Both the position numbers and the translations under genes were made by a program. A stretch of 38,619 nt of DNA from Desulfuromonadales bacterium (lineage in GTDB: Bacteria; Desulfobacterota; Desulfuromonadia; Desulfuromonadales; Syntrophotaleaceae), in contig JAUWLU010000006.1 in assembly GCA_030613545.1 (NCBI GenBank), positions 1 through 38,619 on the forward strand. The letters are read 5' to 3'. Below are positions 3,655-36,768 of the stretch, one piece after another. How positions within the stretch are numbered: position 1 is the stretch's first letter; every line of letters begins with the position of its first letter. The notes below the pieces were generated by a model, which saw only the letters and a list, made by a program, of their open reading frames with translations, ran no database searches and was not told where the DNA came from.

Positions 3655-3736
3655 AACGAAATCTGCTCCATGAATCAGAAAGAGCGAAGAGGTACCGCAG
3701 GGAGCGCCATAAAGTCCATCGGCGCTTTAAGAGGCT

Positions 3737-3886
3737 GATGCTTTCGCAAAAACTCATAAGATGGCTAAGCAAAAATTTCGCCCTACAAGGCGTAGTGGTT
3801 TTTCAGGGGTGAAGGCATACATATGGTATGTCGAGGTCCTGAAAAAGCACTGCAACGCAGTAGGGTGGACTTTTTGCGACGCCATC
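3737..3886 (-). repeat. 150-bp palindromic repeat, copy A (reference orientation on minus strand)
   Basis: GATGC..TCGCAAAAA...GCGACGCCATC; flanked by direct repeat AGAGGCT (3730-3736 and 3887-3893). Confidence 0.9.
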
Positions 3887-3938
3887 AGAGGCTGCCAGAT
3901 TGTAACAAAGCCAGGCCGGCTAGTTCTTGCCTCTGCCG

Positions 3939-6654: not shown

Positions 6655-6720
6655 GGTCTTTTCCTTCGGCAGAATGTCTATTCATGGGGCTGATTGCAGC
6701 AGTCCTTTTGTTGCAAACTT

Positions 6721-6870
6721 GATGCCGTCGCAAAAAGTCCGTCCTACTGCGTTGCAGTGTTTTTTCAAGACTTCGACATACCATATGTATGCCTTCACCC
6801 CTGAAAAAGCACTACGCCTTGTAGGTCGAAATTTTTACTTAGCCATCTCATGGCTTTTTGCGAACCCATC
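6721..6870 (+). repeat. 150-bp palindromic repeat, copy B
   Basis: Same 150-bp unit; flanked by AAACTT (6715-6720 and 6871-6876). Confidence 0.9.
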
Positions 6871-6939
6871 AAACTTGGCTGCCATGCTAGCAGAACCGTG
6901 GAGTCCCGGCAACAAGGACAGTCCATCGGCAAGGAGGCT

Positions 6940-16681: not shown

Positions 16682-17483
16682 GCCCCTCTACCATATCGGT
16701 TTCGGCCGCCAGGATCTGGGCGACCCTGCCCCGGTCATGGCGCTGCTGTGCGGAGACCCCGAACGCAGCCGCCAGATCGCCGAGCAGACGCCGGGGGTGA
16801 CGCTGCTCAAAACCCTGTCCCGACAGCGTGGTCTTAACAGCTATCTGGTTAACCTGGTAAATGGTCGCCCCCTGCTGATCGCCACCAGCGGCATGGGCGG
16901 ACCGTCGCTGAGCATCGTAGTCAACGAACTCTATCAGGTCGGCATTCGCCAGATTATTCGAGTCGGCACCTGCGGTGCCATCGCTGACAACATAACAACC
17001 GGCAGCGTGGTGATCAGTAAAGCGGCCCTCTGCCGCCAGGGGGCTGCCGAGGATATCGCCCCCCTCGAATATCCGGCGGCAGCCGATCCCTTTCTCACCG
17101 TCGCTCTGGTCGAAGCAGCCCGTACACTCGATGTGCCCTGGCATCTCGGCATCACCGCTTCCGTCGACACGTTCTACGAAGGTCAGGAACGGACCCAATC
17201 GTCAGCCAACCCTCACCTGCTGCGGCGTCTGCAGGGCATCACCGACGAATACCGACGGCTCAACATTTCCAACTACGAAATGGAGGCCGGCACCCTATTC
17301 AAGATGGCTGGGGTCTACGGCTTTGCCGCGGCCTGCATCTGCGCAGTGCTGGCGGATCGCAATCGAAGTGAGAACGTGGAAAGGGCAAAGAAAGAGCAGG
17401 CGGTACAAGGGGCTATTCAAGTGGCCTTGCATGCGGCACTTCACCAGCAGCAGACCGCCGGAACCACATCGGCCAAAGCCTGA
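16671..17483 (+). CDS. udp: Uridine phosphorylase
   Basis: LCGDPERSRQIAEQ, ATSGMGGPSLSIVVNEL, IRVGTCGAI, NYEMEAGTLFKMAGVYG; overlaps cdd by 11 bp. Confidence 0.92.
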   Translation: MNHEPLYHIGFGRQDLGDPAPVMALLCGDPERSRQIAEQTPGVTLLKTLSRQRGLNSYLVNLVNGRPLLIATSGMGGPSLSIVVNELYQVGIRQIIRVGTCGAIADNITTGSVVISKAALCRQGAAEDIAPLEYPAAADPFLTVALVEAARTLDVPWHLGITASVDTFYEGQERTQSSANPHLLRRLQGITDEYRRLNISNYEMEAGTLFKMAGVYGFAAACICAVLADRNRSENVERAKKEQAVQGAIQVALHAALHQQQTAGTTSAKA

Positions 17484-17534
17484 TGCTTTCGCAAAAAGTC
17501 ATGAGATGGCTAAGCAAAAATTTCGACCTACAAG
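17482..17534 (-). repeat. Truncated copy C of the 150-bp palindromic repeat (53-bp terminal fragment)
   Basis: GATGCTTTCGCAAAAAGTCATGAGATGGCTAAGCAAAAATTTCGACCTACAAG matches one end of copies A/B/D/E, then homology stops. Confidence 0.85.
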
Positions 17535-28495: not shown

Positions 28496-28617
28496 CAGAG
28501 CCGTCCCGACCGGACGTAAGGAGCAAAAAGCGTTGTAAAGCATGGGATTTATGTTTAAATGGCCAAGGAGCCTGCCTGCCCGAGACCGATGATTGCAATG
28601 CACGGCTGCCAATAGTT

Positions 28618-28767
28618 GATGCCGTCGCAAAAAGTCCGTCCTACTGCGTTGCAGTGCTTTTTCAGGACTTCGACATACCATGTGTATGCCTTCACCCCTG
28701 AAAAAGCACTACGCCTTGTAGATCGAACTTTTTGCTTAGCCATCTCATGGCTTTTTGCGAACCCATC
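28618..28767 (+). repeat. 150-bp palindromic repeat, copy D
   Basis: Same 150-bp unit; flanked by AATAGTT (28611-28617) and AATCGTT (28768-28774). Confidence 0.9.
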
Positions 28768-28812
28768 AATCGTTGTGCGATCCATTTTTCTCCCACGCCC
28801 CAGGGTACCCGA

Positions 28813-30027: not shown

Positions 30028-30122
30028 ATGGTTGCAGGGCTTAAGGGGCCGGTCAAACAATTTTGCCGCCGGTTCCCTGGCAAGCTCCTTCAACCTGCGG
30101 CTCGGCCCAAAGAGGCTTCGCA

Positions 30123-30635
30123 ATGCCCAAGTGGTTGCCCCATATCCTGTTATGCGCCTACTTTGGCGGCTTTTTACTGCTCATAGCAGTGCTTGCCTGG
30201 TTCAGGCCCGCAGCGCATCGGGACAACAGTCAGCCCATCGCTTTTCCTCATACGGTGCATGCTGGCCGCCTTGGCCTGGCCTGCAACTTCTGTCACGAAT
30301 CGGTTGCTCACGGCCCGCAAGCCGGCATGCCGGCCGTGGCCAAATGCGTTTCCTGCCATCAGGCGATCGCCACGGAGCGACCGGAAATCCAGAAGCTGCT
30401 GAGCTATCAGAAAAAGGGCGAACCGATCCGCTGGCGACGAATCCACCAGTTACCCGACTTCATCTACTTTTCTCACAAACGCCATGTCAGCAGCGGCCTG
30501 GATTGTAGCGCCTGCCACGGCGCCATCGCAGAGATGAAGGAGGTGCGCCGGGTCCGCTCCCTGCAGATGGGCTGGTGCCTGAGCTGCCATCGCAGCCGTG
30601 GCGCTTCCTTCGACTGCGCCACCTGTCATAAGTGA
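30123..30635 (+). CDS. Pentaheme cytochrome c subunit of alternative complex III (ActA-like)
   Basis: Five CxxCH motifs (CNFCH, CVSCH, CSACH, CLSCH, CATCH) and an N-terminal TM anchor; precedes ActB/ActC-like genes. Stop TGA lies at the repeat E junction. Confidence 0.88.
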   Translation: MPKWLPHILLCAYFGGFLLLIAVLAWFRPAAHRDNSQPIAFPHTVHAGRLGLACNFCHESVAHGPQAGMPAVAKCVSCHQAIATERPEIQKLLSYQKKGEPIRWRRIHQLPDFIYFSHKRHVSSGLDCSACHGAIAEMKEVRRVRSLQMGWCLSCHRSRGASFDCATCHK

Positions 30636-30783
30636 TTGCGTCGCAAAAAGTCCGCCCTATTGCGTTGCAGCGCTTTTTCAGGACTTCGACATACCATATG
30701 TATGCCTTCACCCCTGAAAAACCACTACGCCTTGTAGGTCGAAATTTTTGCTTAGCCATCTCATGCCTTTTTGCGAGTCCATC
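30634..30783 (+). repeat. 150-bp palindromic repeat, copy E
   Basis: Same 150-bp unit; flanked by ATAAGT (30628-30633 and 30784-30789). Confidence 0.9.
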
Positions 30784-30806
30784 ATAAGTAACGGAGAGAA
30801 CCGAGC

Positions 30807-36691: not shown

Positions 36692-36768
<77 letters not shown>

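Follow-up and report, generated by a model that had tools for sequence, protein, structure and literature searches.

The short direct repeats that flank a 150-bp repeat element in this Desulfuromonadales contig are true target-site duplications (TSDs), left by insertion of a non-autonomous MITE into single-copy targets of 6–7 bp. The window, which is the whole stretch of 38,619 nucleotides that was analysed, contains four full copies (A, B, D and E) and one fragment (C) of the ~150-bp element, and a repeat search finds the full copies to be at least 91% identical and present in both orientations. Copy A (3737..3886, + strand, 150 bp, GATG...CATC) lies between AGAGGCT at 3730..3736 and AGAGGCT at 3887..3893, and copy B (6721..6870, − strand) between AAACTT at 6715..6720 and AAACTT at 6871..6876. 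Copy D (28618..28767, − strand) is flanked by AATAGTT at 28611..28617 and AATCGTT at 28768..28774, and copy E (30634..30783, − strand) by ATAAGT at 30628..30633 and ATAAGT at 30784..30789. Copy C (17482..17534, + strand) is a left-end fragment of 53 bp and has no TSD. Read directly from the letters, the flanking repeats at A, B, D and E have the sequences and coordinates given by the first-pass annotation, with a length of 6–7 bp and one mismatch in D. The 8-bp CAAACTTG that it offered for copy B merely adds the terminal C and G of the element, which fall outside the TSD.

Comparison with relatives provides the empty orthologous sites. Synteny of the locus extends over ~25 kb in two genomes of the same genus and is found on shorter contigs in two further ones. 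At site A the element is absent from G002 and G003, which carry AGAGGCT once and read TTTAGAGGCTGTCTGA. Site B is likewise empty in G002 and G003, where its length equals that of the joined flanks, with substitutions. At site D, G001 and G002 have one copy, AATGGTC, within GCCAATGGTCTTGC. None of the four relatives has the element at site E, next to which ~46 bp are deleted in the host genome. The expectation that empty sites would carry a single copy is borne out for A, B and D in same-genus genomes, and relatives also lack the element at E. The insertions at A, B, D and E are lineage-specific.

The host genome (G000) is a fragmented MAG of 2.85 Mb in 403 contigs, in which the pattern of the terminal inverted repeats (TIRs) matches 194 times forward and 190 times reverse, with no match for the reversed control; the copy number in this Desulfuromonadales MAG is roughly 190. 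Duplications were counted in 89 distinct full copies from G000 with both flanks present, the element being taken as GATG...CATC. An exact TSD of at least 6 bp borders 64 of them (72%), with lengths of 6 bp (47 copies), 7 bp (15), 8 bp (one) and 10 bp (one), whereas of 7832 mis-pairings of a left flank with the right flank of another locus, 0.38% match over at least 6 bp. It is this difference, together with the empty orthologous sites, that identifies the repeats as TSDs. The tabulation of duplication length proposed by the first-pass annotation gives a majority of genomic copies with duplications and a mode of 6 bp. Its claim that every full copy is flanked holds in the window (four of four) but not across the genome, where 25 of the 89 copies lack an exact TSD. 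An earlier set of 69 copies contained 19 such non-exact ones, and 6 of these were off by one base, under a one-mismatch rule that 5% of mis-pairings also fit. The mismatch at copy D may plausibly mark an older insertion, as was suggested; mean identity to copy A is only slightly lower for copies that lack an exact TSD than for those with one (92.3% versus 94.0%).

The duplicated sequences share their edges. Their first base is A in 60 of 64 cases and their last is T in 58 of 64; the two positions before them are pyrimidines (55 and 53 of 62) and the two after them purines (46 and 49 of 62). The preferred target is symmetric and palindromic, YY-A(N4-5)T-RR. The bordering T...A is assigned to the TSD and not to the element because the copies with exceptional borders agree across sides, with A on the left in L024, L031 and L032 and T on the right in L043 and L044. 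An internally deleted copy of ~85 bp (L318, 179-263) still has the flanks AAACAA/AAACAA.

From GATG to CATC the element measures 150 bp, and nearly all copies of the family fall within 149–156 bp. No ORF of at least 80 aa is contained in it. The terminal inverted repeats GATGNNNTCGCAAAAA...TTTTTGCGANNNCATC are kept in 36 aligned copies; at the left end the outer motif GATGNNNTCGCAAAAA is followed, at least 7 bp inward, by GATGGCTAAGCAAAAA, and the right end reads TTTTTGCGACGCCATC. Pairing between the right TIR and the inner left motif folds ~126 bp into one long hairpin with a z-score of −6.4. Among 36 sequences of two types, 62 cells of this hairpin are double-changed with pairing kept, compared with 19 in shuffled alignments (0 of 500 reach 62) and 5–27 when the pairing is slid. 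The shuffle keeps relatedness and many of the changes separate the two types, so the covariation counts as supportive evidence only. The idea of a 126-bp form in some lineages, ending at the inner left motif, was rejected, as L265, L266, L287 and L288 have the outer left end further upstream, with the TSD bordering it. An Rfam scan matches no family to the element; the sole Rfam match in the window is a tRNA gene at 36692-36765. Short and non-coding, with TIRs, TSDs and a high copy number, the element has the hallmarks of a MITE, and with no ORF, its TIRs and a covarying hairpin over its whole length it is a non-autonomous one.

A short, palindromic, high-copy element whose whole length forms one hairpin could also be a REP/REPIN-like repeat that a RAYT (Y1 HUH) transposase disperses without producing a TSD. 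Y1/HUH insertion leaves no TSD, however, and this origin is made very improbable by exact duplications of 6–10 bp at 72% of copies and by empty sites with one copy of the target. We give as little credence to a conserved regulatory RNA, attenuator or protein-binding site beside which the flanking repeats would be incidental. Compensatory changes do keep the hairpin, and similar multicopy sequences are termed putative regulatory elements in earlier genome papers (PMC2700814), but the Rfam scan is negative, placement of the element at A, B, D and E is not shared with relatives, and genomic copies occur in both orientations (49 + and 40 −). A regulatory side effect of single copies is possible. 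Amplification by homologous recombination or gene conversion instead of transposition would accommodate the copies without a TSD and the tandem copies of L147 and L164, expected if copies recombine together, but it is the least credible reading because locus-specific 6–7 bp duplications at single-copy empty sites, seen for most copies, are not made in this way.

The best explanation, in which we have high confidence, is that the MITE transposed into single-copy targets of 6–7 bp and duplicated them. A transposase would probably bind GATGNNNTCGCAAAAA at each end, and perhaps also the second, subterminal motif GATGGCTAAGCAAAAA at the left. It would then make a staggered cut of 6–7 bp in the target, and repair of the resulting gaps would produce the TSDs. 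DDE transposases leave staggered-cut target duplications of such a size, and as no autonomous element was found the TSD is the sole guide to the class of the transposase. The exact-TIR sites examined in G004, G050 and G042 comprised only MITEs, fragments and unpaired ends, with no convincing pair at 0.3–3 kb, and the fetched loci of PF01609, NF033594, PF00665 and PF01610, which are part of the matches, included none with MITE ends. The sequence scanned held no gene-sized, TSD-bounded element with MITE ends, except one between two MITE copies. The transposases found in G000 were one PF01609 protein (C403) and one weak ISL3 (PF01610) match with an internal stop, and this genome gave no match for PF00665 (rve) or NF033594 (ISNCY). 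The IS1182-like C403 was discarded as a partner, its inverted repeat GAGCCTCTTGCAAAAGT being only loosely like the MITE end and its ends having no matching TSD. End-only matches in distant genomes were also discarded as IS ends; most were diverged MITEs of the same layout and none was an IS. An autonomous partner was not found among these four transposase families in partly sampled, fragmented MAG sequence, and the G000 assembly, being fragmented at repeats, could lack a multi-copy IS. This raises the question of which transposase moves ~190 copies with no matching autonomous element found. One wider scenario, conceivable though rather doubtful, is a phylum-wide orphan MITE superfamily with the palindromic target YY-A-N4/5-T-RR, moved not by a matching IS but by a transposase that resides in the host or has yet to be recognised, in genomes apparently poor in the searched families, with pairs of copies also carrying host genes as composites.

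In a survey of the order the family occurs in 29 of 58 genomes (16 of 36 genera), with conserved ends and near-constant length in those 29, and in a sample of the phylum in 35 of 395 genomes (20 of 246 genera); these relatives share ends, layout and TSD rule. A second type has the same ends around a different interior, is 153–156 bp long and shows a TSD of 6–7 bp in seven of eight copies. Diverged copies in other, distant families of Desulfobacterota keep the TSD rule as well (L265 ATAATT, L266 AAGTTTT, L287 AAAGTT, L288 AATATT). The named relatives of one neighbouring gene are Desulfuromonadales MAGs. Plasmid and phage collections gave no match to copy A or to a distant-type element. TIR-pattern matches in IMG/VR were mainly unrelated coding sequence; L260 carries a partial sequence of the same type as the window copies, and L259, L261 and L263 carry a related type.

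TSD-bearing MITEs are a familiar kind of element (PMC10969869). The nearest described case is Chunjie, from Geobacter uraniireducens (Chen et al. 2008, Genetics 179:2291; via PMC10969869), which resembles the present family in being non-coding and mostly intergenic, in having TIRs and direct repeats and in belonging to the same phylum. Compared by description only, it is size-variable at 178–235 bp, whereas the present family keeps to 149–156 bp nearly throughout. The genomes of G. metallireducens, G. bemidjiensis and Pelobacter carbinolicus contain multicopy nucleotide sequences (PMC2700814, PMC2996986, PMC3543383) that are likewise short, intergenic and abundant repeats within this bacterial group. 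Again by description only, they are termed putative regulatory or unexplained, unlike the MITE reading presented here. Correia/NEMIS, ERIC, RUP and other bacterial MITEs are likewise high-copy, non-autonomous and hairpin-folding, with TIRs and TSDs. Correia and RUP duplicate TA. The present family differs from Correia/NEMIS, ERIC and RUP in its TSD of 6–7 bp within a palindromic target, in its ends and in repeating the end motif subterminally at the left. A literature search on the terminal sequence gave no repeat of such kind among the matches listed. The element is of a known kind, and a description of this particular family was not found in the literature searched, which is not proof of its absence. 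The family, which many genera of Desulfobacterota carry, makes up roughly 1% of the host genome. If undescribed, it may account for some of the multicopy sequences of the group as mobile DNA, and its copies would serve as insertion-dated markers.

Several arrangements of copies extend beyond the single insertion. In L110 (3296-4401, G000:C196) two inverted copies, one of 150 bp and one shortened to 76 bp by an internal deletion, enclose a segment of 0.88 kb with an apparent OmpA-like gene. Of the flanks of this pair, the outer ones match (ACAATT/ACAATT) and the inner ones do not. It is a candidate MITE-bounded composite transposon, as one case recognised post hoc. Tandem copies a few bp apart occur in L147 (G004:C1:1258300-1263700) and L164 (14994-15286), and the two adjacent copies of L164 have a single outer TSD, AAGTTTT, in common. 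Several contigs of G000, among them C168, C326, C167 and C308, begin or end within or at a copy (for example L022, L035, L046 and L047), and the MITE repeat probably helps to fragment this assembly. At copy E the last T of the left TSD and the GA of the element form the TGA stop of a cytochrome c7-type ORF (30063-30635). Among flanking frames of at least 100 codons that reach a junction, a post hoc count with small numbers (n = 14), T|GA is in TGA phase in nine, the other phases accounting for four and one. Further junctions that supply a TGA stop lie in L110 near 5041 and in L004, L003 and L109, which suggests that insertion into stop codons is tolerated.
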